Source: an uncultured Aquimarina sp. (GTDB lineage Bacteria; Bacteroidota; Bacteroidia; Flavobacteriales; Flavobacteriaceae). Taken from it: a stretch of DNA of 64,000 nt. The position numbers and the translations under genes are program-made. Below the pieces are notes generated by a model. The model ran no database searches. It was not told where the DNA came from and saw nothing but the letters and a program-made list of their open reading frames with translations. Location: contig CALLUJ010000033.1 in assembly GCA_938011245.1 (NCBI GenBank), forward strand, positions 1 to 64,000, given 5' to 3'. Below, piece after piece: positions 3 through 11,703 of this stretch (its first letter is position 1; each line of letters starts with the position of its first letter).

Positions 3-197
3 TTCTATAATCACGAATTAGACCAAGTTCGAACCGCTAGAGTAAATTCATTTTTCTCGCTAATCCCAGAAATGACGGGTAATATAGGAAATAAAAAAAG
101 CGGAAATTTTATCAAGTTTGATAAAATTTCCGCTTTAGTGAGCCCTGAAGGATTCGAACCTTCTTCCTTATCCCCTGTATTTACAAGGGTTTTCTAG
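3..197 (+). CDS. Possible 3' end of a chromosomal gene cut by the left edge
   Basis: One frame is open from the left edge to a TAG at 195-197. This is unusual for AT-rich DNA and its early part reads like protein (NHELDQVRTARVNSFF). I do not recognise the family. From about position 93 the frame runs through a terminator hairpin and the att repeat. The last roughly 35 codons are therefore either fortuitous or were altered by the insertion. It would converge on the original tRNA-Arg transcript. Sequence left of the window is needed to confirm it. Confidence 0.35.
   Translation, partial: FYNHELDQVRTARVNSFFSLIPEMTGNIGNKKSGNFIKFDKISALVSPEGFEPSSLSPVFTRVF
100..133 (-). terminator. Original terminator of the tRNA-Arg gene, now stranded left of the element
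   Basis: A perfect 15-bp stem (100-114 with 119-133) encloses a 4-base loop. On the minus strand it is followed by seven T residues (complement of 93-99). It lies immediately beyond the left att repeat, which is where the tRNA-Arg 3' flank would be before insertion, so it was probably that gene's terminator. A short T run on the other side may make it bidirectional. Confidence 0.75.
137..163. repeat. attL: 27-bp direct repeat, duplicated tRNA-Arg 3' end
   Basis: This stretch is identical to 11628-11654 and matches the 3' end of tRNA-Arg (T-arm and acceptor strand, read on the minus strand). It marks the left boundary of the integrated element. Confidence 0.9.
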
Positions 198-212
198 TTA
201 TTTAATAATTAA

Positions 213-232
213 GTATGCCTAAAAGTGTGCCT
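213..232 (+). promoter_or_regulatory. Candidate left arm-type integrase sites (two GTRTRCCT repeats)
   Basis: GTATGCCT (213-220) and GTGTGCCT (225-232) lie 12 bp apart, 50 bp inside attL. The same 20-bp arrangement, with 16 identical positions, recurs at 11485-11504 inside attR. Direct repeats flanking the crossover core are what tyrosine integrase arm sites look like. The role is inferred; the repeat is seen. The second copy abuts the promoter of the ATPase gene. Confidence 0.6.
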
Positions 233-236
233 TTTG

Positions 237-244
237 TATATTTG
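237..244 (+). promoter_or_regulatory. -7 promoter element TATATTTG for the RepA-like gene
   Basis: The sequence matches the Bacteroidota -7 consensus TAnnTTTG. Transcription would start near 251 and leave a leader of about 65 bases before the ATG at 318. The same 13-bp string TTTTGTATATTTG occurs at the polymerase promoter (8600-8612). Confidence 0.55.
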
Positions 245-317
245 TCCACTATATAGTAATATGGACGTTGGACATCTAAATGATGTGTTCAATTGTTCTT
301 ATTTAATCTATTTGATA

Positions 318-1511
318 ATGGCTAAAAAAGACACTAATAGTTTGGATTCTGCATTTGGTGAAGTTATAACCCCAGATGATTCTGATTTTGATGAAAAACC
401 AAAAGCATTAAGTACTTCTTTTGGAGATGTAATAATACCATCTGAAGATGAAATTAGAGGAAACCTTAAATTCATTAAACCTGTAATAAAAGGAAATAAA
501 GCTAAAGCAGCAGATTTTAGTGATTCTGAATATTCTGCCTTTAATCTTTTTAAAACAGAATTTGAAGAAATACCTACTCTTCTAGAGCCTATATTCCCAA
601 AACAAGGTTTAGTTTCTTTAATTGGTTCTTCTGATACTGGTAAAAGTACTTTCCTTAGACAATTTGCTCTTTCTATAGCATTAGGATTAAATGAGTTTGT
701 TGGTTACAAGTTAAATACAGAAACACAGAATGTTATTTTTATTAGTACCGAAGATGACCCTAATTCTGTAAGTAGTTCTATAAAGAAACCTTTAAGAGCA
801 TTATTTAATCAACATAATGCAGATGAATCTTTATTAAATCATTTAAAATTTATATTTGATGTTGACCTTACTGAAAATAGTGAGAACAACATCATTAAAC
901 TTCTCAACAAAGATTTGTCTGAAAAAGGAGTTGATTTAATTATTGTAGATGCTTTTACTGATATTTTTAGTGGAGATATTAATTCAAGCACTAAAGTGAG
1001 AGAGTTTTTAAATCTCTTCAGTAAAATTTCTAAGGAGTATGAATGCCTTATCCTCTTCCTTCATCATACAGGTAAAAAAACAGATAAATTTTCTGCTTCT
1101 AAAAACAATGCTTTAGGCTCTCAAGCCTTTGAAGCTAAAATGAGGGTAATGCTTGAATTAAAGCACCACCCACATAATGACATGCAAAGAACTCTTACTA
1201 TTACTAAAGGAAACTACATTTCTACAGAAATTAAGAAGTACTCTAAAGTTTTAGATTTTAATGAGGAAAATTTATTGTTTACAGATACAGGTAACCCTTT
1301 ACTTTCTGAAAGCATATATGCCTTGAGTAAAACCAACCCTAAGAAGAATAGTTTACTACCAGTAATAGAAAAGCTCCACAAAGAAGGCAATTCCTATAGA
1401 ACCATAGAAACTATTCTTAGAAATAAAGGTCATAAAATTAGTAAATCAACTGTTGAAAATTATTTAAAAGAAATAAAAAACCAATCTGCTAACATAATAG
1501 GGAATAATTAA
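318..1511 (+). CDS. RepA-like AAA ATPase (AAA_25 type) with C-terminal HTH
   Basis: The 397-residue protein has a RecA-fold ATPase core: Walker A GSSDTGKST at residues 103-111, STEDD at 143-147, Walker B LIIVD ending at 211, and a HHTGKK sensor-like segment at 249-254. The family includes hexameric RepA helicases of plasmids, so a role in replicating the element is likely. Residues 355-385 resemble a helix-turn-helix. The first 50 residues are acidic and contain a motif twice (SAFGEVITPDD and TSFGDVIIPSED). I chose the ATG at 318 because it follows the promoter at 237-244; the longer open frame starts at a GTG inside an arm-type repeat. The gene converges on the next one with a 4-base overlap. 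Confidence 0.75.
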   Translation: MAKKDTNSLDSAFGEVITPDDSDFDEKPKALSTSFGDVIIPSEDEIRGNLKFIKPVIKGNKAKAADFSDSEYSAFNLFKTEFEEIPTLLEPIFPKQGLVSLIGSSDTGKSTFLRQFALSIALGLNEFVGYKLNTETQNVIFISTEDDPNSVSSSIKKPLRALFNQHNADESLLNHLKFIFDVDLTENSENNIIKLLNKDLSEKGVDLIIVDAFTDIFSGDINSSTKVREFLNLFSKISKEYECLILFLHHTGKKTDKFSASKNNALGSQAFEAKMRVMLELKHHPHNDMQRTLTITKGNYISTEIKKYSKVLDFNEENLLFTDTGNPLLSESIYALSKTNPKKNSLLPVIEKLHKEGNSYRTIETILRNKGHKISKSTVENYLKEIKNQSANIIGNN

Positions 1512-2002
1512 GAAAGTGAGGAATTATGATATTTAGTATTTCTTATTGAAATCCCTGTATTTTCATCTTTCTTAACTAATAACTCTAAAACTGTATTAGT
1601 ATCTAAATTGCAAGTTGCTCTATAAGCTATAAATGGGTTTATTACCATTCTTCTATTTTTTGGTAAATAGCTATTTATTTCATTTAATAAATATTCAAAA
1701 TGATTTCCTTGAAACCTGTAGTAAACAGCACTCAAAATATCTGCATTAAATAGTAATACAATTCCTCTTGAAATAGGTAAACCAAAAAGTGTTTTAAAGT
1801 CACCCTTTTCATATAGGTATATTTCATAACAGATACCATTAACTGTTTTCTCTCCTTTAGACTTTAAATCAAACTCATAATTTTCATATTGCTCACCAAT
1901 TGTAAACCTAAGTTGCTTTAAAAGGTTCTTTTTACTTTTAAAAATACCTGTAACTAAAAAAAGCCACCTTTTAAGATGGCTTTTGAAAATTTCCTTTAGC
2001 AT
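1508..2002 (-). CDS. Hypothetical protein of up to 164 residues
   Basis: I do not recognise this protein. It is soluble-looking, with a basic N-terminus and no signal peptide or clear motif. Its 3' end overlaps the RepA-like gene by 4 bases. The start is doubtful because codons 6-17 coincide with a strong terminator for the upstream lipoprotein gene (1954-1984). Either translation starts further in at a non-ATG codon, or read-through is regulated. No other ATG is near the N-terminus. Confidence 0.5.
   Translation of the reverse strand: MLKEIFKSHLKRWLFLVTGIFKSKKNLLKQLRFTIGEQYENYEFDLKSKGEKTVNGICYEIYLYEKGDFKTLFGLPISRGIVLLFNADILSAVYYRFQGNHFEYLLNEINSYLPKNRRMVINPFIAYRATCNLDTNTVLELLVKKDENTGISIRNTKYHNSSLS
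1954..1984 (-). terminator. Rho-independent terminator of the lipoprotein operon, inside the next ORF
   Basis: On the minus strand a stem of 11-12 bp (one G-U pair) runs from 1984 to 1959 and is followed by seven T residues. It lies just downstream of the lipoprotein gene stop at 2007, yet overlaps the first codons of the 164-residue ORF. Confidence 0.7.
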
Positions 2003-2006
2003 AATA

Positions 2007-2789
2007 TTAATCTATTGAGTGAGTTGCTGTAGAAAAAGTATAGATAAATGTTTGTCCTATATTAATGGATAAATTATTATCATCAAAGACTACATTATTA
2101 CTTCCATCATATATTTCAACTCTATTTATAACTGTTTGGCTTGCACTTTCAGTTTGATATTTAAAACCAATCTTGTCAAAAGTAGCAAGTGTATTTACCA
2201 CAAAAATATCTGTATTAGTTGTAGTCATTATAGTTTCGGATTCCAAATTACCATTTAAATTACTTTTGTAAAAAGTAGCTGTAAGGGGATATTGTTGATT
2301 AGGTGTTGAAGAACCTGAAAATCTGATTCTGTATTCTCTAAGTTGAATAGAATCACTAGATTCTAGACAATCTCCATCTACAGTATTACCAACTCTTGAG
2401 TATTCAAAGCTATCCCCATCATTTTCAACTCTTAATTTTCTACCATTAACTTTACCAGTTAATATACAGTTGGAAAAAATAGAACCTCCATTACAAACTG
2501 TGTTAAGGGTTATTTCAAGATTCGATGAATTGTAACTATAAGTTCCTTCATATGCTTCTTCATCAACTAAATTGCCATTTCTAAACCCATCAAGAATAAG
2601 TTTTACATCATTGTCATTAAGAAAGTAAAGCAATAAGTCTTGCTGATAACCATCTACTACTGGACTTATGTAATTCCATTCTGTACCACATAAACTTAAT
2701 GGTGTTTCTTCTTGATTATTACCATTATCATCACTAGAACAGGATAGTAATGTAAAAAACGCTATTAGTATTAAATAAATCTGTTTCAT
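2007..2789 (-). CDS. Surface lipoprotein, function unknown
   Basis: The 260-residue protein begins with a type II signal peptide ending in LLSC. The lipidated Cys is followed by SSDDN, which fits the Ser/Asp-rich export signal that sends Bacteroidota lipoproteins to the cell surface. The N-terminal half (CGTEWNYIS onward, then short beta-like segments) resembles lipocalin-like folds; the C-terminal half looks beta-rich. It is the third gene of a membrane operon (3418 down to 2007), 3 bases after the preceding gene, and probably under the Xre repressor. No enzymatic motif is visible. Confidence 0.7.
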   Translation of the reverse strand: MKQIYLILIAFFTLLSCSSDDNGNNQEETPLSLCGTEWNYISPVVDGYQQDLLLYFLNDNDVKLILDGFRNGNLVDEEAYEGTYSYNSSNLEITLNTVCNGGSIFSNCILTGKVNGRKLRVENDGDSFEYSRVGNTVDGDCLESSDSIQLREYRIRFSGSSTPNQQYPLTATFYKSNLNGNLESETIMTTTNTDIFVVNTLATFDKIGFKYQTESASQTVINRVEIYDGSNNVVFDDNNLSINIGQTFIYTFSTATHSID

Positions 2790-2792
2790 AAG

Positions 2793-3233
2793 TTAGTTAT
2801 TAATGTTCTTAATAATATTTGTAATTTCATTTACCATGACATCAAAAGTCTGTAGTTCTTCGGTGTAACTCATTTTGTATTTATTAATTTTCACAACATC
2901 TAATGTTGTTAGTAAAGACTTTTTTATGGTATCAAAAACTACTATATATTTTGATTGCTGTTTTAGTTGCTCTGGTAGATTTATCATATTTAATTGACCT
3001 AACTGAACTGGTTTTTTACCTGCTTTAAGAAAAGCTAAATGATAAACTTTGTGAGACAGTTGGTTTATTTTTTCATCACTACTATTGTCAGGACTTTTAA
3101 ATAGTTCACTAAAATCTGTAAATACTTCATTTTTAAAGGAAATTACTTTAGTTGCATTTCTACTTTTAGTCCTAAAACTATCTATGATAAGCCCAACAAT
3201 TACAGCTATTACAATTGATACAATTATTCCCAT
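2793..3233 (-). CDS. Membrane-anchored hypothetical protein
   Basis: The 146-residue protein has one N-terminal membrane segment (residues 2-18, VSIVIAVIVGLI) followed by a hydrophilic, lysine-rich cytoplasmic or periplasmic domain that is probably helical. I recognise no family. Its start codon overlaps the stop of the upstream 61-residue gene by one base, and the surface lipoprotein follows after 3 bases, so the three are co-transcribed. Confidence 0.65.
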   Translation of the reverse strand: MGIIVSIVIAVIVGLIIDSFRTKSRNATKVISFKNEVFTDFSELFKSPDNSSDEKINQLSHKVYHLAFLKAGKKPVQLGQLNMINLPEQLKQQSKYIVVFDTIKKSLLTTLDVVKINKYKMSYTEELQTFDVMVNEITNIIKNINN

Positions 3234-3418
3234 TATTTATGTTTTTTAAAAAACCATACATAGATAATTCCAAATACTAATATTGCACCTGGTATTAATC
3301 TAACTCCAGCAGAGTTTGAATTTCTAGTTTCTGAAATAAGAGCCATACTTACTGCTGCTACAACTATTACAGCTACAGTGAGTAATATTTTTATTCCCAA
3401 TAATTTTAACTTATTCAT
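3233..3418 (-). CDS. Small membrane protein, first gene of the Xre-controlled operon
   Basis: The protein has about 61 residues and two hydrophobic segments (roughly residues 6-24 and 38-54) ending in a short basic tail. I chose the ATG at 3418 over the one at 3427 because 3427 lies inside a predicted repressor operator and 3418 has the A-rich context typical of this group. A TATATTTG promoter element lies at 3442-3449 on the minus strand. The function is unknown. Confidence 0.6.
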   Translation of the reverse strand: MNKLKLLGIKILLTVAVIVVAAVSMALISETRNSNSAGVRLIPGAILVFGIIYVWFFKKHK

Positions 3419-3420
3419 TT

Positions 3421-3484
3421 TTATCATTTATGATAACTGTTCAAATATAATAAACTTCATCTTTGTATTTATCATAAAAGATAA
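3421..3484. promoter_or_regulatory. Two TTATC-N6-GATAA operators in the divergent xre promoter region
   Basis: Two 16-bp palindromes of identical architecture lie at 3421-3436 (TTATCATTTATGATAA) and 3469-3484 (TTATCATAAAAGATAA), 48 bp apart centre to centre. They sit between the Xre regulator and the leftward membrane operon. The first overlaps the predicted start of the leftward transcript (-7 element at 3442-3449). The second is 13 bp upstream of the xre ATG. Binding by the adjacent Xre protein is inferred. Confidence 0.7.
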
Positions 3485-3497
3485 CTAAGTGTTTAAA

Positions 3498-3719
3498 ATG
3501 ACAGATAAAGAAGAATTACAAAGAGCTGTTGGTAAACGTATTAAAGAATTAAGAGAGTCTAAAAACATTGCTCAACAAGACTTAGCTGCTGCTTGTAATT
3601 TTGAAAAATCTAATATGGCAAGATTAGAAGCTGGAAACACAAATGCTACTATTTATACCCTTAAAATTATTGCTAAAAACTTAAAAGTTGAGTTAGCAGA
3701 TTTAGTTAAAGATTTATAA
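3498..3719 (+). CDS. Xre-family transcriptional repressor
   Basis: The 73-residue protein is almost entirely a Cro/cI-type helix-turn-helix domain (residues 8-66), with the recognition region QQDLAAACNFEKSNMARLE at 26-44. I chose the ATG at 3498; an in-frame GTG at 3489 would add three residues. It is divergent from the membrane/lipoprotein operon, and two matched palindromes lie between them. It probably represses both itself and that operon. Without a protease or dimerisation domain it resembles restriction-modification controllers and small element regulators rather than LexA-cleavable repressors. Confidence 0.85.
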   Translation: MTDKEELQRAVGKRIKELRESKNIAQQDLAAACNFEKSNMARLEAGNTNATIYTLKIIAKNLKVELADLVKDL

Positions 3720-3822
3720 AAACGCTATTAATACCTATCTTAAAATAATTACGGTTTTAAATTAATGCTTAAATAGTGGGAATTTACATAAGTTCACAAA
3801 TACATTTATTCAAAAATTACAG

Positions 3823-3851
3823 TTTTACTATATAAGATTTTTATAGTAAAA
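3823..3851. repeat. 10-bp inverted repeat in the xre-radC gap
   Basis: TTTTACTATA (3823-3832) is followed by its exact complement at 3842-3851. Neither strand has a long T run after it, so it is a weak terminator at best. The rest of 3720-3920 shows no gene or other convincing signal. Confidence 0.4.
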
Positions 3852-3920
3852 TTCAGATAAGATTGATTTTAACCTATAGCAAAAAGTATGTATAAACAAT
3901 ACTTCACTTTTATACAGGTA

Positions 3921-4355
3921 CTACATAATTCCTTCATCATTAAAACTGTAAAAGCCATTTTTTGTAATAATTAAATGGTCTAATACAGCTATATCCAAAT
4001 ATTCTCCTGCTTTTTTAAGTTTGTTAGTCATTATTTTATCAGCTTCACTAATTTTTAGGCTACCACTTGGGTGGTTGTGTGCTACAATAATACCTTTTGC
4101 ATTACATTTTAAAGCTACTGAAAACACCAATTTAGCATCTACATTTACACTAGAACTTCCTCCTTTGGCTAATGGATAAATTCCTAATACTTGATTAGTA
4201 TTATTTAGTAACAATACTTTAAATTCTTCCTGTAATTCTATAGTATGTTTATTCCAACAAGCTAATAGTAAATCATAAGACATTTTACTGTTGGTTATTT
4301 TTAATCGTTTCTTGTTATTGTTGGTGTAAGAAACTTTAATTTCTGCTATTTCCAT
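3921..4355 (-). CDS. RadC-like JAB/MPN domain protein
   Basis: The 144-residue protein matches the C-terminal RadC domain: JAMM metal-binding pattern H93-x-H95 and D106 within HNHPSG...SEAD, plus an upstream Glu (43/44). It lacks the helix-hairpin-helix region of chromosomal RadC, as is usual for copies on mobile elements. The biochemical role of RadC proteins is unsettled; association with DNA repair or element maintenance is a family-level statement. A terminator separates it from the upstream 4415-4813 gene. Confidence 0.85.
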   Translation of the reverse strand: MEIAEIKVSYTNNNKKRLKITNSKMSYDLLLACWNKHTIELQEEFKVLLLNNTNQVLGIYPLAKGGSSSVNVDAKLVFSVALKCNAKGIIVAHNHPSGSLKISEADKIMTNKLKKAGEYLDIAVLDHLIITKNGFYSFNDEGIM

Positions 4356-4373
4356 AAGGTTATAAAAATTAAA

Positions 4374-4402
4374 AAAGGCATCACTTTAGTAGTAATGCCT
4401 TT
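4374..4402 (-). terminator. Terminator of the 4415-4813 gene
   Basis: AAAGGCATCACT pairs with AGTAATGCCTTT (11 of 12 positions) around a 5-base loop. On the minus strand it is followed by a T run (complement of the A run at 4370-4376). Confidence 0.6.
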
Positions 4403-4414
4403 GTTGTTGATTTG

Positions 4415-4813
4415 TTAAGAAGCATACTGTAAAGCTCCATTTTGGCTAAACTGCTCAATGTTTGGTTGTAGTGTTTCAGTCTCTAATGGAATACTTTTAG
4501 CTACAGGTTCTTTTACATCCTCTGGCATATAAGTCCATCTATGATGCATTATAATTTCTTCTCCTGTTTCTGTAACAACATACTCATAAGGCTCACATTC
4601 TTCTTTAATAATGCTACCCTGCATTTCTGTACCTGTTAAAGCAATACAAGTTTGCTCATCAAAAGTTGAAGGTATGTAAGCCTTTTTTGCAGTTGCATAA
4701 AAATTACCTGTAGATTTTGACCTAATCAATTCTACACCTCCTTGAAGTTCTAGAACATTAAATAGTTCTCCGTTTTCTTTTTGTCTTTGTTTGTAACCAA
4801 TAATTCTTACCAT
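4415..4813 (-). CDS. Hypothetical protein of the element
   Basis: The protein is 132 residues from the ATG at 4813 (MVRIIGYK); the frame extends 18 codons upstream to 4867, but that extension (WWYFQLKNLKN) looks non-native. It is predicted soluble, with a beta-rich N-terminal half and an acidic, glutamine-rich tail. I recognise no domain. Its position beside a RadC-like gene is common on mobile elements of this phylum, but this gives no function. Confidence 0.55.
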   Translation of the reverse strand: MVRIIGYKQRQKENGELFNVLELQGGVELIRSKSTGNFYATAKKAYIPSTFDEQTCIALTGTEMQGSIIKEECEPYEYVVTETGEEIIMHHRWTYMPEDVKEPVAKSIPLETETLQPNIEQFSQNGALQYAS

Positions 4814-4867
4814 GTTCTTTAAGTTTTTAAGTTGAAAATACCACCAAGAAAACAATACTTCTACCAT

Positions 4868-5075
4868 AAAAAATTACAACTATCACCTTGAGTTTTTTAC
4901 TGGCTGAAAAAAAATGCTTTCACTATATAAGTGGTGGGGGAATCTTCATTCCTAAAGATGGGTGGGGGTTTTCTATGAGGTATTTCAAGCACTCACTATT
5001 CCTGTGTAATTTTTTTTTAACAAAAAAATATCTCATATATTGGACAATACTAAGATTCTAAATTGTTAAACGTTA
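4868..5075. other. Noncoding gap with paired GGTGGGGG motifs
   Basis: This 208-bp gap between divergent genes holds two copies of GGTGGGGG (4933-4940 and 4961-4968), 28 bp apart, in otherwise AT-rich DNA. A small ATCTT/AAGAT inverted repeat lies between them, and a run of nine T residues followed by seven A residues lies near 5010-5030. It could be a protein-binding or origin site, but nothing here identifies it. Confidence 0.35.
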
Positions 5076-5912
5076 ATGAAATTCATACAGCCATTAGAGA
5101 TAGCTTCTAAAATAATGACACTAATTGAAGAAGCAGAGAAAGAACTAATTATAATCTCCCCTTATGTTGAAATATCTAAATGGAACAAAATGAAAAGCTG
5201 TTTAAATAGAGCTGTTCTTCGAAATGTAAATATTCTTTTTGTAGCAAGAAAAAATGCAAAACAAGATTTGTCCTTTATAACTGAATTGGGAATCAAAGTT
5301 AAGCTAGTAGAAAACTTACATGCCAAATTATATATAAATGACAACTATGCAATAGTAACCTCTCAAAATATTACTTACTATTCAGATGTAAACTCTATTG
5401 ATATAGGCTATAAGACAGATGCAGAAGAAGAAAGAATTGAGCTTATTGAGTTTATTGATAAATATGTGATTAGTAATAGTTACAAAAAGCTAGATACTTC
5501 TAAATCTTTCAAATTTAACATAGTAAAAGAAAGTAACAAACCTCCAATGCTAAATGAATATAAAGTAAATAAGCTGTATGAATCATTCTCTGTTAAGTAC
5601 CCTAATGCTTATTTTTCTAAATCTTCTACTTATCTATATAGTGAAGGACTACTACCTTATGTAGTGATGCTTAGTTCTGATTTAACAGTTAGATTATCTA
5701 AAAAGAATGATGATTGTTTAAAGGTAATAAGTCATTATGAAGCGGTGAATTTCCCATTAATAGAAGATTATAATATTGAATTAAAAGAAGTAACTAATTA
5801 TTTCTATATAAATTTTGTTCCCAAAAATTTAAAAGGATATGGAATACAAAAATTAACCTCTGATTATCATGAAATGGTGAGAACATTTAAAGATAATCCT
5901 ACTAAATTTTAA
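5076..5912 (+). CDS. Phospholipase D-fold protein with a single HKD motif
   Basis: In this 278-residue protein, residues 1-135 form a PLD-like domain. There is a start-of-domain segment LIIISPYVEI, and a complete HKD motif with H82, K84 and D89, followed by S96-Q-N98. One HKD per chain suggests a dimer, as in the restriction nuclease BfiI and the Nuc family. The C-terminal half (about 150-278) is unrecognised and may bind the target. It has its own upstream gap and is followed after 17 bases by two small membrane-protein genes on the same strand. In a mobile element this arrangement looks like cargo. A nuclease role, possibly defensive, is inference. Confidence 0.7.
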   Translation: MKFIQPLEIASKIMTLIEEAEKELIIISPYVEISKWNKMKSCLNRAVLRNVNILFVARKNAKQDLSFITELGIKVKLVENLHAKLYINDNYAIVTSQNITYYSDVNSIDIGYKTDAEEERIELIEFIDKYVISNSYKKLDTSKSFKFNIVKESNKPPMLNEYKVNKLYESFSVKYPNAYFSKSSTYLYSEGLLPYVVMLSSDLTVRLSKKNDDCLKVISHYEAVNFPLIEDYNIELKEVTNYFYINFVPKNLKGYGIQKLTSDYHEMVRTFKDNPTKF

Positions 5913-5929
5913 TCGTTATTCAGAGTAAA

Positions 5930-6328
5930 ATGAAAAGATTAATATCATTAAAGACATTAATTCTAACATTTTTACTGTTATTTGTAGTTTCAGTAAACGA
6001 ATACTCAAGATTTAACAACTCAAATAAAGGCTTTGTTAGAAAAGGAATAACAGCTATTAATCCAAGTATAAAAACACCTGAAAAATGTAGTTGGTATTGC
6101 CACACTGATACTGGTTACTGTAAAAAACATCATACTCATTTACTAAAAAATCATACTTCTAAAATAGACCCTTTTTATTTTGGCATTATAAACTCACTAC
6201 ATAATGCAGGAGATTATGGTTTAGCCAATATTATTTTTTTAGTGATTTTATTTCCTGCATTAATCTATGTGCTTTTAATAAAAAGCATAAGCATTCAAAG
6301 AAAAATAAAAAGACTAAAAAATGGATAG
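5930..6328 (+). CDS. Small membrane protein with a Cys/His cluster
   Basis: The 132-residue protein has an N-terminal hydrophobic segment (about 8-22, LILTFLLLFVVSV) and a second near 98-118, with a loop between them. The loop carries CSWYCHTDTGYCKKHHTH, that is C-x3-C-H-x5-C-x2-H-H-x-H, a plausible metal or haem site facing the periplasm. I recognise no named family. It starts 17 bases after the PLD-fold gene and overlaps the next gene by 8 bases, so the three are likely co-expressed. Confidence 0.6.
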   Translation: MKRLISLKTLILTFLLLFVVSVNEYSRFNNSNKGFVRKGITAINPSIKTPEKCSWYCHTDTGYCKKHHTHLLKNHTSKIDPFYFGIINSLHNAGDYGLANIIFLVILFPALIYVLLIKSISIQRKIKRLKNG

Positions 6329-6536
6329 ATTGATGGATGTAGTGAATTTAGTCTATGCTTATTGTACAGATTTTATAATCAATATAGCTAACATCTTAGG
6401 GTTGTCATATTATGAAGTCAATACTTTCATTTTTGTTATTCTATACCCTTTATTATTAGTTGGTTTAACTTGCTTATTTATAATTCAAATTTTAAGGTTA
6501 AGGTACTGGAAAAAAGAAACCCAACCTCTAAAATAG
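6321..6536 (+). CDS. Small membrane protein, third gene of the PLD module
   Basis: The 71-residue protein has a central hydrophobic segment (about 35-58, FVILYPLLLVGLTCLFIIQIL), a possible amphipathic helix before it and a short basic tail. It overlaps the upstream Cys/His membrane gene by 8 bases. Its last codons coincide with a hairpin that terminates the oncoming DUF3871 gene. The function is unknown. Confidence 0.5.
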   Translation: MDRLMDVVNLVYAYCTDFIINIANILGLSYYEVNTFIFVILYPLLLVGLTCLFIIQILRLRYWKKETQPLK

Positions 6537-6545
6537 AGATTGGGT
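6519..6545 (-). terminator. Terminator of the DUF3871 gene
   Basis: ACCCAA and CTCT pair with AGAG and TTGGGT with one mismatch. On the minus strand the hairpin is followed by TTTCTTTTTT. It lies 6 bases past the stop of the minus-strand gene and overlaps the 3' end of the plus-strand small membrane gene. Confidence 0.55.
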
Positions 6546-6550
6546 AAACA

Positions 6551-7582
6551 TCAACTTAAAAACCAATGAAAAGAACCATCATTGATAGCTTTTGAAATAC
6601 TTTTTGTAAAATCAAATGCATTGATATTACGATTTAAAAAGCTATCAATATAGCTACTCTTATTGGCTGAGGTAAACAAGTTGTACATATCCCAAAGATT
6701 GATGTTTCCATCTTCATTTTTACAAAACCTTTCATCTTGGTAATAATCCTTAGCAATGGTAGAAATTTGTCCATCATTAATAAGTAATTGAGGTATTTCT
6801 AACTTCTCTTGCTTAGGTAAGAATTGATAAAGTTTAGCTCTGCCAACTAATTGGGCAAATTGTTTTTCTGGAAGTTGGTATTGGGTTAAATTTTGCATCG
6901 ACTTAAAATGATGCTCCATTTTGTAAGACTGTAATAACTCCATAATTTTGGCTTTCAATTCTCCATAGCTAGATACTTTTATTTCAGCAGAAAATCCATC
7001 TGTAGAAATACACAAATTACAGCATACCATATTTTGAAAACCTATAAACACTTGAAACTTTTCAAATGATTTTTTACTGTAAAGATTTTCTCTGTTATAG
7101 GCTCTAACTCCACCAACTATTAAGGATAATTTATTACCATTAATAGTTTCAGTAATACTTGGTATTCGGATAATAAAAGCCATTCTTTCAAAATATTGTG
7201 TCCTTTCATAGTCTAATAAATCTTTAGCCGATTTATGTATAGCCTCAGGAGTTCTACCTTTAATTTGGTGGCTAATTCTAATTTCAGGTTTACTAATATG
7301 ATGCCTATTAAACGTTGATGTTACACAGTCATTTGTAATATCAATAAACTCTTGATGTGCTATGGTTTTTTCGTTGTCTTTTGCGAATACAGGAATCACA
7401 CAATCCTGCTTTAAACAAGAAAGGCTAACCTCTTTTGTGTTAGCCTCTATAAAAGGATTTTGCTGAAATTGTAAAGGTTCATTTGATACCTGTATTAAAG
7501 AGGAACTATTGTTATTAACTCTTTTTACTACAGGTACTTTGTTTAGGATGGGTATATCCTTAGATACTGGTATAAGTTCCAT
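6551..7582 (-). CDS. DUF3871-family protein
   Basis: The 343-residue protein fits the DUF3871 family seen on Bacteroidota mobile elements. The N-terminal 90 residues are low-complexity, and a conserved core follows (RISHQIKGRTPEAIHKSA, then FERMAFIIRIPSITETING and LIVGGVRAYNREN). Its biochemical function is not known. It is 15 bases downstream of the Sak4-like ATPase gene on the same strand, so the two form an operon and may act together in DNA metabolism. The family call is from memory of conserved segments and has moderate certainty. Confidence 0.65.
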   Translation of the reverse strand: MELIPVSKDIPILNKVPVVKRVNNNSSSLIQVSNEPLQFQQNPFIEANTKEVSLSCLKQDCVIPVFAKDNEKTIAHQEFIDITNDCVTSTFNRHHISKPEIRISHQIKGRTPEAIHKSAKDLLDYERTQYFERMAFIIRIPSITETINGNKLSLIVGGVRAYNRENLYSKKSFEKFQVFIGFQNMVCCNLCISTDGFSAEIKVSSYGELKAKIMELLQSYKMEHHFKSMQNLTQYQLPEKQFAQLVGRAKLYQFLPKQEKLEIPQLLINDGQISTIAKDYYQDERFCKNEDGNINLWDMYNLFTSANKSSYIDSFLNRNINAFDFTKSISKAINDGSFHWFLS

Positions 7583-7597
7583 AATAATTGATTTTAA

Positions 7598-8473
7598 TTA
7601 GTTAGTAGAAGGTCTATGCACTCCATTAGAACTGAAATTTTGAGGATTTATCAAACTTTCCAATTGTTGCTTTTTAGTTCTAAATTCTTCTTGATGTGAT
7701 TGCTGAAATTGTGGATTTTGCTTGTACAATTCCATGAGCTTATTTACTGAAAGACATTCTTTAATCCTATCTGATATAGGTTTGTTGTGTACAGGCTCAA
7801 TAGTACTCCATTGTAATAGTTTTTTACCTGTAGCAGAAGATATTATAAATTCAGGTTTTCCATTAAACAAGCCTGTCCTGTCTTTTGATGTTTTAACTAA
7901 ATGCTTATCATTAAGGAGTTCAAAGTTAACTGTCAGCTCATACTCAAAACCCTCCCTAGTGATTTCTTTAGTTCCATGTTTTACAACTTTAGTTCTACCA
8001 TTAGAACCTACATCTAAAGAGTAATCAATCTTTCTTCTAGTAGTGGTAATAATATGGCAATTTGACTGTAGTATTTTATCAATAAATGCTTGATGTCTTG
8101 GAGTAACCTTTGCCCAATCTTGAAACCTACCACCTAGTTGTTCTTGTATTTGTAAACAACCACCAGTACCAGACCATTCATGTGTAATGGAATCCAAAAT
8201 GCAGACTTCAATTCCTGCTTTTTCACAAACTTCTATAGCTTCAACATACCTTTCAGGAGAAAATGGAGCTTGTAAATCCAGTACATTATAATTACCTAAA
8301 TGGCTGTACAAACTAGCTGAACTGTTTTCTGTGTCAACAACTGCTATTTTAGACCAGTCATTGGTTAATCCATGTGCCAATAATAAGGCACTTGTTGTTT
8401 TTCCAAATCCACTTGGTCCAGAAATTCCTATGCGTAGTTTTACATTACTACGCTTACTTTGTTTTAATTGCAT
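7598..8473 (-). CDS. RecA-fold ATPase of the AAA_24/Sak4-like type
   Basis: The 291-residue protein has Walker A G19-PSGFGKTT, Walker B ending at D93 (VCILD) and a conserved THEWSG segment after it. This layout is that of phage nucleotide-binding proteins such as Sak4, which act in single-strand annealing and recombination. Residues 225-291 are polar, Gln/Asn-rich and probably flexible, as in proteins that recruit SSB. It heads an operon with DUF3871 and is divergent from the polymerase-like gene. An annealing or recombination role in element replication is inferred. Confidence 0.7.
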   Translation of the reverse strand: MQLKQSKRSNVKLRIGISGPSGFGKTTSALLLAHGLTNDWSKIAVVDTENSSASLYSHLGNYNVLDLQAPFSPERYVEAIEVCEKAGIEVCILDSITHEWSGTGGCLQIQEQLGGRFQDWAKVTPRHQAFIDKILQSNCHIITTTRRKIDYSLDVGSNGRTKVVKHGTKEITREGFEYELTVNFELLNDKHLVKTSKDRTGLFNGKPEFIISSATGKKLLQWSTIEPVHNKPISDRIKECLSVNKLMELYKQNPQFQQSHQEEFRTKKQQLESLINPQNFSSNGVHRPSTN

Positions 8474-8604
8474 AATTTTTATGTTTAAAAAAGTTAATAT
8501 TTATTTGAAAATAAATTAAGGATATAATGAACTAAAAACCTGTAAAACAATATTTTAAAAACAAATATTCAGTCTTTATATTAGTGTTTACTATTCGTTT
8601 TTTG

Positions 8605-8612
8605 TATATTTG
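8605..8612 (+). promoter_or_regulatory. -7 promoter element TATATTTG for the polymerase-like gene
   Basis: The sequence matches the TAnnTTTG consensus and predicts a start near 8618, giving a leader of about 105 bases. It shares the 13-bp string TTTTGTATATTTG with the RepA-like promoter. Confidence 0.6.
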
Positions 8613-8617
8613 CATTA

Positions 8618-8723
8618 GTCATTTAAAACATGAAACTCTAAAGGAGTACTAAATAATTGTGGTGTTTTATTTAGTTTAATACTTCTTAAGTCTGCTTTTG
8701 CAGCCCTCTTTTTTAGAGGGATT
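8618..8723 (+). ncRNA. Structured 5' leader with three hairpins and a mini-ORF
   Basis: After the promoter comes a three-codon ORF (ATG AAA CTC TAA, 8630-8641). Three consecutive hairpins follow. The first is bipartite: 8641-8647 pairs with 8681-8687, and 8648-8654 pairs with 8669-8675. The second is CTGC/GCAG at 8692-8703. The third is CCCTCT/AGAGGG at 8704-8720, three bases before the ATG. The pairings are visible in the sequence; an attenuation or translation-control role is inference. Confidence 0.5.
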
Positions 8724-10238
8724 ATGTCTAACACCATTGACAAATCTCTTGCACCACAGAAATCTAGAGATATAACACCGCAAAACACACCTGTAAGTGC
8801 AAATCAGGAAAGTGTAGAGAATTGTCTTCCTAAAAGTTTAACTGCTTTCATTCCAAGTAATTTAGACCTTGATGAATTACTAAGGTTAATTCCGCCTACT
8901 TTTAAATATGATAAAGATGAATTTTTGTATTTAATAGATTTGATATACAAGTTAGCTTCAAAACAAATTAAAGATGAATCTTTTAGTTTTTTTATAAGAC
9001 CTCATTCTGCTTTAATGCAAAGAAGAGTAAGAGCATATAGAAATTGCCTTGATTACCTTGTTGAGAATAAAATTTTGATAGAGGATTCACAATATATAGT
9101 GAATAAACAATCTAGGGGTTTCATGTTTACACCCCAATATTGTACAGAGTTAAAGCAGACTAAAATAACAAATCAAAAACTCATCAAAAAAATTTTAAAA
9201 TTCTATAAAACAGAAACCAATCAACCTATACTAAATAATGATGGTTTAGATATTTTTCATCTATTAAAATGGTTTGAAAATGGAAAATTAAAAATTGATT
9301 ATCCTAAAGCAAAAGCATATCTAAAAGACCTGTACCATCAAGAAAATAAGAGTATAACAGAAGTAGAACAATATAAAAAAGTCTCTAAGGGCATAGATTA
9401 TAATTTTGAACAATACCAGAATATAAAAGCTATTCTTAGATATAATAGCAGATTAAGACCTCTTATATTATTCAACAATAGCACCTTTAATCCTACTGTA
9501 GATAAAACTGCAGGAAGATTACATTCAGTATTGACTCAATTAAAAAGTGATTTGAGACAATTTATAACCTATAATGGAGAACCATTAGTTTCAATTGATA
9601 TTGTAAATTCTCAACCATATTTAGCATCTGTTTTACTCAATGAAGAGAAATTTAAAGAAAATAAAATAACAAAATTAATACAACTCTACAATCCTAAATA
9701 CATATCTAATAATAATACTTCCATATCTTTCCCTATTATGTTAGCAAAATTAATTCAGCGCATAGAAACTAAAAATGACACTTTGAAATATATTGAATCT
9801 GTTGCCAATGGTCAATTCTATGAAGAGTTTGCTAAGCAGATGGGTGATAATAATTTGAGTAGAAATGCTATAAAAAAAGCAACATTTAGTTCAATATTTA
9901 GCCCCAATCAATTAGCAAAACAGCTTGAAGGTGTCAAATTATTTAAAGACGTTTATCCTAGTGTTTTTAAAGTTTTTTCAAAAGTAAAATCAGGTAAAGG
10001 CACTCATAGAACTTTGGCATGTGTACTACAAAATTTTGAAGCTAAGCTTATACTACATATTGCTTGTAAAAAAATAAGTAAACTCAATCCAGATATACCA
10101 TTATTCACACTTCATGATTCTATAATAACTACTCCAAGATATCAAACTCTTGTTGAGCATATAATGAATGAAACTCTATCTAACGGTGTTGGTTTTCCTC
10201 CAGTATTAAAAGTTGAAAGATGGGAACAGGTAGCTTAA
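8724..10238 (+). CDS. Family-A DNA polymerase-like protein lacking an exonuclease domain
   Basis: The 504-residue protein carries family-A polymerase landmarks in order. GRLHS is at 264-268 (compare TGRLSS in Pol I). LRQFI at 277-281 is followed by motif A V-S-I-D292. An O-helix pattern has R380, K384, F388 and F392 at exactly the Pol I spacing of R754, K758, F762 and Y766. Motif C is LHDS at 463-466. D292 and D465 would be the catalytic acids. The steric-gate Glu of Pol I is not conserved (DIVNSQP). The N-terminal 230 residues are unassigned. It is probably the element's replicase or a primase-polymerase; the assignment is mine, by motif. Confidence 0.6.
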   Translation: MSNTIDKSLAPQKSRDITPQNTPVSANQESVENCLPKSLTAFIPSNLDLDELLRLIPPTFKYDKDEFLYLIDLIYKLASKQIKDESFSFFIRPHSALMQRRVRAYRNCLDYLVENKILIEDSQYIVNKQSRGFMFTPQYCTELKQTKITNQKLIKKILKFYKTETNQPILNNDGLDIFHLLKWFENGKLKIDYPKAKAYLKDLYHQENKSITEVEQYKKVSKGIDYNFEQYQNIKAILRYNSRLRPLILFNNSTFNPTVDKTAGRLHSVLTQLKSDLRQFITYNGEPLVSIDIVNSQPYLASVLLNEEKFKENKITKLIQLYNPKYISNNNTSISFPIMLAKLIQRIETKNDTLKYIESVANGQFYEEFAKQMGDNNLSRNAIKKATFSSIFSPNQLAKQLEGVKLFKDVYPSVFKVFSKVKSGKGTHRTLACVLQNFEAKLILHIACKKISKLNPDIPLFTLHDSIITTPRYQTLVEHIMNETLSNGVGFPPVLKVERWEQVA

Positions 10239-10240
10239 AA

Positions 10241-11443
10241 CTACCTTTCCATCTTGGATTTCAATCTCTTTATTTCCTCACTCACTTTCTTTTGAACCAC
10301 TTCTCCATAGCTATCTTGTGTTACACTCATTTTAGAATGTCCCAATAGCTTAGATACAATTTCCATTGGCACATCATTATAAAGCAATACAGTAGTGGCA
10401 AAAGTCTTTCTAGCAATATGATGAGTGAGCTTCTTTTGAATGCCTAAAACTTCAGCTATTTCTTTCATATAAGAATTGAATTTTTGATTTGAGATTTTTG
10501 GTAAAAGTGATTCCTCAGGTTTATACTTATTTAGTATAATTTTTGCTTGCTCTAAAAGAGGAACTGAAATAAGTTCATTAGTCTTTTGCCTAGTCATTTT
10601 AATCCAGGTATTACCATCAAATTCTTTAACTAAGTGGCTAGAATTGAGGTTTGACATTTCAGTATATGCAAGTCCAGTATAACAACAAAACACAAATAAG
10701 TCCTTTACCTTTTGTAGCCTTTCTTGACTGAAATTATGGTTTTCAAGTAGTTTAAGTTCTTGAGTTGATAAATAAACAATTTTAGTTTTTTGCTTCTTAT
10801 TTTTATACAGGTTAAAAGGGTCTCGTTGCAAATAATTTTCAGCTATTGAAAACTGAATGATTTTCTTAAGCCTTTGCATACTTCTGTATATAGTAGCTTG
10901 CTTTAGCTTCTTTTCAGTTTTCCAATAATACTCTAAGTCCTTTATAAACTTCAAATCAAGTTGTTTTAATTTGATGTCAGATTTATTGTAGTTGTGCTTA
11001 ATAAACTCTGCTACCTTTCTTCTGCTTTCTACATATCTACTCCAAGAGAGTTCATTAAAATCTACCCCAATTAGCTTTTTAGTTTTATCATTATGCAAAT
11101 CATAAGCTCCCAAAAGGGTGATTTCCTCTTTAGAATCTTCTCCTTTAAACTTTCTGTAAATATCATCTACATCAAAGGTATTAGGTAGAATTTGAAGCAT
11201 TAAAAAAGCCTCATTAATCTTTTGACTAATAAGGCTCAGTTGAGTGTTTAAGTTTTTATACTTATTTGGTGGTTTAGCTAATTGTTTTAAACTATCCCAA
11301 TCCTCTGGATTGATAAATAGTCCAGTAGAGAATATTTTTCTCTTTTTTAAATATGTAACCCTACATCTTATGGGACACTTGTTTTGTTGATTCAACCTAT
11401 TCTTTTGTAAAAGAAATAAGATTGATATTTTATAATTATTCAT
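10241..11443 (-). CDS. int: Tyrosine recombinase (integrase) of the element
   Basis: The 400-residue protein has an N-terminal arm-binding domain, a SAM-like core-binding domain (about 110-215) and a catalytic domain. Catalytic residues visible are K287, H342-x-x-R345, H369 (LLGHS) and nucleophile Y379. The first catalytic Arg, expected in TGLR, is A259 (TGLAY). The CTnDOT integrase also lacks this Arg. The gene lies beside attR and the intact tRNA-Arg, with candidate arm sites directly upstream, and should catalyse insertion and excision at the 27-bp repeat. No separate excisionase is obvious. Confidence 0.92.
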   Translation of the reverse strand: MNNYKISILFLLQKNRLNQQNKCPIRCRVTYLKKRKIFSTGLFINPEDWDSLKQLAKPPNKYKNLNTQLSLISQKINEAFLMLQILPNTFDVDDIYRKFKGEDSKEEITLLGAYDLHNDKTKKLIGVDFNELSWSRYVESRRKVAEFIKHNYNKSDIKLKQLDLKFIKDLEYYWKTEKKLKQATIYRSMQRLKKIIQFSIAENYLQRDPFNLYKNKKQKTKIVYLSTQELKLLENHNFSQERLQKVKDLFVFCCYTGLAYTEMSNLNSSHLVKEFDGNTWIKMTRQKTNELISVPLLEQAKIILNKYKPEESLLPKISNQKFNSYMKEIAEVLGIQKKLTHHIARKTFATTVLLYNDVPMEIVSKLLGHSKMSVTQDSYGEVVQKKVSEEIKRLKSKMER

Positions 11444-11627: not shown

Positions 11628-11654
11628 AGTGAGCCCTGAAGGATTCGAACCTTC
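11628..11654. repeat. attR: 27-bp direct repeat within tRNA-Arg
   Basis: This is identical to 137-163. It covers the acceptor 3' strand, the T-arm and the discriminator base of tRNA-Arg, so integration leaves this tRNA copy complete. Confidence 0.9.
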
Positions 11655-11703
11655 GACCGCCTCCTTAGAAGGGAGGTGCTCTATCCAGCTGAGCTAAGAG
11701 CCC
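11630..11703 (-). tRNA. tRNA-Arg (anticodon UCU)
   Basis: The cloverleaf is complete over 74 bases. The acceptor GGGCTCT pairs with AGGGCTC (two G-U pairs). The D-arm is GCTC/GAGC. The anticodon arm is CCTCC/GGAGG with loop CTTCTAA. The T-arm is GAAGG/CCTTC with loop TTCGAAT. CCA is not encoded. It is the integration site of the element to its left. The 218 bases upstream (11704-11921) hold no gene. Confidence 0.95.

Follow-up and report, generated by a model that had tools for sequence, protein, structure and literature searches.

A PLD-family protein in the exchangeable defence slot of a tRNA-Arg-integrated element of Aquimarina, beside an independent pair of membrane-protein genes

A gene for a single-HKD PLD-family protein followed closely by two small membrane-protein genes raises the question of whether the three form one system. 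We analysed a 64,000-nt stretch of an uncultured Aquimarina sp. (contig CALLUJ010000033.1, positions 1 to 64,000), hereafter the window, the first base of which is also the first base of the contig. A preliminary description of the locus had proposed that a nuclease effector is paired here with membrane partners in the cargo of an element. The ORF coordinates agree with its account of three plus-strand genes, here called A, B and C, with a 17-base gap (5913-5929) and an 8-base overlap (6321-6328). By hydropathy, B and C are membrane proteins as described, B having strong transmembrane segments at residues 4-22 and 99-117 and C one strong segment at 37-55 plus a weaker N-terminal hydrophobic stretch.

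5076..5912, plus strand: A, single-HKD PLD-family protein, probable nuclease, 278 aa, the sole gene of the cargo slot in this element (homologues L126, L141, L142 and L021)
5930..6328, plus strand: B, two-TM protein, 132 aa, with a C/H-rich loop between the helices (C53-x3-C57-H58, C64, H68; alignment of 18)
6321..6536, plus strand: C, membrane protein, 71 aa, with the motif YxYCTDFxINxANxxxxSYYExNxxIF (alignment of 18)

A, B and C lie in an integrative element

The three genes are enclosed by an integrative element of ~11.5 kb, which is bounded by perfect 27-nt direct repeats at 137-163 and 11628-11654, 11,491 bases apart. The integrase, the tRNA target and the flanking direct repeat that define a tRNA-integrated element are all present.

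137..163: left attachment repeat, AGTGAGCCCTGAAGGATTCGAACCTTC, a perfect 27-nt direct repeat of 11628-11654
225..1511, plus strand: AAA_25/KaiC-like ATPase, backbone (Pfam AAA_25, E 8.9e-26); C-terminal part kept in the sister element L029
3489..3719, plus strand: HTH_3 regulator, backbone, 70-90% identical in L029 and L031
3921..4355, minus strand: RadC-like JAB protein, backbone, 91-94% in L029 and L031
4415..4867, minus strand: conserved backbone protein, 89-92% in L029 and L031, the last backbone gene left of the slot
4930..4968, plus strand: conserved G-rich sequence of 39 nt, AGTGGTGGGGGAATCTTCATTCCTAAAGATGGGTGGGGG, at the left border of the slot, with the same letters in L029 and L031
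5031..5929: variable cargo slot; in blastn against L029-L034, the sisters are homologous in DNA up to ~5027-5031 and again from 5907-5994
6519..6545: terminator-like hairpin with a 12 bp stem, between the convergent C and DUF3871 genes
6551..7582, minus strand: DUF3871 protein, backbone (Pfam E 1.3e-135)
7598..8473, minus strand: AAA_24 ATPase, backbone (Pfam E 2.7e-15)
8724..10238, plus strand: 504-aa protein, backbone in some sisters (59% in L029; no Pfam family)
10241..11443, minus strand: tyrosine recombinase (integrase; Pfam Phage_integrase, E 4.8e-13)
11628..11654: right attachment repeat, the 3′ end of tRNA-Arg(TCT) (11629-11703, minus strand)

The 504-aa protein is probably replication-related. 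The G-rich sequence occurs once in its own genome and was not found in the viral contigs, and it may possibly be a transfer origin or a regulatory site. A close homologue of DUF3871 is present in 27 of the 299 sampled Flavobacteriaceae genomes, which were sampled at one per species. The element family is undescribed in the open-access literature searched, a scope with most subscription journals outside it, and DUF3871 appeared there in one unrelated paper. The 10K genomic island of the flavobacterial relative Riemerella anatipestifer (PMC6764341) is likewise a ~10-kb tyrosine-integrase island in an Arg-tRNA with direct repeats; the likeness is one of size, integrase, target and repeats. However, its repeat is 53 bp rather than 27 nt, and the text of that paper contains no RadC or DUF terms.

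The slot holds known defence systems in sister elements

DUF3871, AAA_24 and B/C are common to the window and six sister elements (L029-L034), with which homology is lost 45-50 bases before A and regained at the start of B; the left border was read from L029 and L031, where the left side is covered. With defence genes called by PADLOC profiles, the slots of the sisters contain the following cargo.

L029: LmuA/LmuB Lamassu
L030: type I M
L031: type IIG
L032: type III Mod/Res
L033: HamB-like and PD-T4-3
L034: helicase and PD-T4-3

The genes of the last two are Hachiman/PD-T4-3-like. Known defence systems are swapped at one site across the sister elements, and A, which the preliminary description had called element cargo, indeed lies at this site. 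An Rfam search of the slot gave nothing above threshold.

Twenty further, more distant DUF3871 loci are without B/C. Those scanned carry PglZ/BrxL (BREX) in L123, Cas9 in L124, a type I R gene in L115, a type III R gene in L113 and a HEC-06-like gene in L126. Because distant elements without B/C carry defence genes there, the slot predates B/C in the clade. DUF3871 marks the slot, and B/C marks its right edge in the close clade only.

The comparison of sister elements provides a usable map, in that genes in the slot are likely defence genes; therefore, the unknown slot genes are candidates. These are A and three proteins without a PADLOC match that occupy the right end of the slot, next to Lamassu (L029:6941-7573), type IIG (L031:6582-7205) and type III (L032:6443-7579), the latter three being candidate defence partners.

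A and B/C occur independently of each other

A profile search with C yielded 15 loci in species genomes and two viral contigs, and further loci came from Flavobacteriaceae. B/C was found at 26 other non-duplicate loci in Bacteroidota chromosomes, integrative elements and the two viral contigs; B precedes C at all 26, and the 8-base overlap is often kept. Searches by tblastn and with an A profile in six-frame translations of these loci (383 kb in all) detected A or an A-like gene at 0/26, and tblastn detected B/C at 0/13 A loci. A and B/C are independent of each other.

This contradicts the proposed pairing of a nuclease effector with membrane partners, and the expectation that the three genes move together holds for B and C only: homologues of A and of B/C occur independently with no conserved adjacency. 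A single system of all three genes would be favoured by their common strand and by the 17-base gap, and they likely form one transcript in this element. However, besides the mutual absences at the 26 and 13 loci, the sisters retain B/C while the upstream gene changes, and the two full-length homologues of A at ~50% identity, L126 and L141, both lack B/C. We regard such a system as very improbable.

Conserved residues and relatives of A

The motif of A is HAKLYIND, comprising H82, K84 and D89 of HxK(x)4D, followed by TSQN with S96 and N98; the complete HKD motif had been correctly recognised. H82, K84, S96 and N98 are invariant in a 9-row and a 6-row alignment of A relatives. At the position of D89, by contrast, 12 of the 13 relatives read have E (HxKxYxNE). 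The concern that most relatives might have lost the HKD residues thus applies to D89 only, and D89 is not a family feature. In AgaP, E also replaces D in HxK(x)4D, and the E112A mutant is still toxic (PMC11442185). Since this E is dispensable for toxicity, the swap in A relatives is no argument against catalysis.

A scores 23 bits (E 7.5e-5) against Pfam PLDc_2, below the curated cut-off of 27 bits that is passed by its relatives L142, L024, L027 and L022. The best-scoring family models are the defence PLDs MkoC/MkoB, DrmC and DpdK, all weak, and A has no family-level match to any defence model. A search of solved structures by A sequence found nothing significant. The AF2 model of A, built from 3 sequences, was poor (pLDDT 44) and was left out of the fold search, so that the C-terminal half is without a fold assignment. 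Compared with L126, dN/dS is ~0.24 for A with dS near saturation; the values for the N-terminal domain (0.10) and the C-terminal half (0.47) point to a conserved N-terminal domain and a faster-evolving C-terminal half, though as a direction only because dS is saturated.

Only three near full-length relatives of A were found. L126 (49% over ~270 aa) stands alone in the slot on the 3′ side of DUF3871, and L141 (51%) starts 2 nt downstream of a type IIG gene (1050 aa) in an integrase-bearing element; the two belong to two other genera. A DUF4760 protein lies directly downstream of the type IIG and PLD pair (L141:8185-8814). A-like N-terminal domains are present in ~4% of the sampled genomes of the phylum and differ at their C-terminal ends, which bears out the suggestion of a variable PLD C-terminal domain across this wider set. 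Phage records contained no match to A, plasmids contained N-terminal matches only, in Hymenobacter, and none was confirmed in viral contigs. In the genome of the window itself, a second, distant PLD protein (240 aa) is encoded on another contig (C87:2443-3165); its C-terminal end is weakly HTH-like.

Known PLD proteins compared with A

BfiI, cited in PMC9142583, and Nuc are single-HKD nucleases with one HxK per chain. A shares this arrangement, which would imply an active site formed by a dimer, but solved structures gave no sequence match, and the likeness is that of the HxK arrangement. DrmC of DISARM is, as A may be, a single PLD domain in a defence locus (PMC9142583), and DrmC models are among the best for A. 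These matches are weak, however, at 24.2 bits versus the NCBIfam equivalog cut-off of 133, and the DISARM partners DrmA helicase, DrmB DUF1998 and methyltransferase are all missing from the element genes at 225-11443. A mix-and-match use of PLD nucleases has been proposed for DISARM (PMC9142583), similar to our proposal for A. AgaP, the PLD partner of a prokaryotic Argonaute, is a PLD nuclease in immunity whose E-for-D substitution matches the relatives of A (PMC11442185). A differs from it in that no Argonaute gene lies next to A and in its local TSxN as opposed to a remote GSxN.

B and C form a conserved membrane-protein pair

In the AF2 model of B (pLDDT 85), two long membrane helices flank a loop that contains a beta hairpin and helices bearing Cys and His. 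In this loop, C64 and H68 are invariant and C53, C57 and H58 nearly so. The positive ends of B suggest that its two termini lie in the cytoplasm and its Cys loop in the periplasm. Because C-x3-C-H is haem-like, haem binding was considered for B/C and rejected as a general feature, L037 lacking C57 and H58. C has an unusually conserved polar stretch adjoining its membrane helix, and a Y-x3-N...P motif is common to this helix and the last helix of B (hhalign P 1.8e-5). The dN/dS of B and C against the six sister elements is ~0.1-0.3, and lower without the first 22 codons of B; B/C is evidently under purifying selection.

Foldseek found no match for the B model in the PDB at E up to 10. Searches of PHROGs, Pfam and NCBIfam gave weak, chance-level matches only for B and C, with no holin match in PHROG or Pfam, and tblastn with C found nothing among phage and plasmid records. 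The B/C pair is widespread and conserved, and carries no annotation in any library searched. It is best read as a presumably co-translated pair of small inner-membrane proteins that belongs to the element backbone in this clade.

At four Flavobacteriaceae chromosomal loci, B/C lies within ~5 kb of defence genes, as a raw tally.

L071: type I RM
L073: NucC/CARF
L074: type I M
L075: ZorAB

Housekeeping genes surround B/C at L035-L037, L039-L043, L072 and L076-L078. In the IMG/VR viral contigs (L044:1570-2183 and L045:4716-5316), B/C belongs to a conserved gene run that also includes an HSP20-like gene and, on the opposite strand, a gene for a peptidoglycan-binding protein; in L044, the neighbour has a peptidoglycan-binding domain.

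Explanations for A and B/C

We consider it reasonably likely that the 11.5-kb element in tRNA-Arg has one exchangeable defence slot, that A is its restriction-type PLD nuclease cargo, and that B/C is backbone and not part of the system of A. A would most likely cut DNA as a homodimer and without metal, in the manner of BfiI and Nuc, and its divergent C-terminal half would choose the target or partner. It may restrict phage or plasmid DNA that enters the cell, on its own or together with a restriction system of the host, and could be retained because it restricts invaders. The L141 operon suggests that an A-type PLD can work with a restriction enzyme, and the single copies in this element and in L126 point to action without a partner, or with a host system, as well. 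The PLD fold also occurs in enzymes that act on lipids and in regulators without catalysis, TrmB among them, and A could likewise be a PLD-fold protein other than a nuclease, such as a regulator or an enzyme acting on lipids. A weak match to the TrmB regulator model and the HTH or zinc-ribbon-like C-terminal ends of its relatives agree with this, but the catalytic H, K, S and N are invariant, although a domain without catalysis would be free to lose them, restriction genes are neighbours, and the nearest scored models are those of defence nucleases. We prefer the nuclease and consider a non-nuclease A unlikely.

Alternatively, B/C may be a small membrane module in its own right, protecting the element or host by, for instance, superinfection or entry exclusion or as a membrane-acting anti-phage pair, and defence cargo would accumulate beside it. 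The constrained, co-translated pair, the motif common to the last helix of B and C, the presence in two viral contigs and the four chromosomal loci near defence genes are all consistent with such a module, but other loci lie among housekeeping genes, the defence-neighbour tally is a raw one, and the searches gave B/C no family or fold match. We consider such a module rather unlikely. A broader version is likewise improbable: B/C would be an undescribed two-gene module of related small membrane proteins, one with a Cys/His-rich loop, that serves to exclude phages or to protect the element in Bacteroidota at large and in some of their viruses. It would also mark a so far uncharted family of elements that carry defence genes, and A, as brought to light by their slot, would be a new PLD restriction nuclease.

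Divergent and partial relatives of B/C

The pairs at L076, L077 and L078 are divergent and share a conserved chromosomal place beside an ABC-transporter ATPase gene, gldA-like by eye. A 133-aa protein at L081 resembles, by eye, a fusion of C and B. Lone small C-like proteins without B are encoded at L079, L080 and L082; the copy at L079 is antisense to a gene whose end it overlaps and lies within a run of large phage-like genes.
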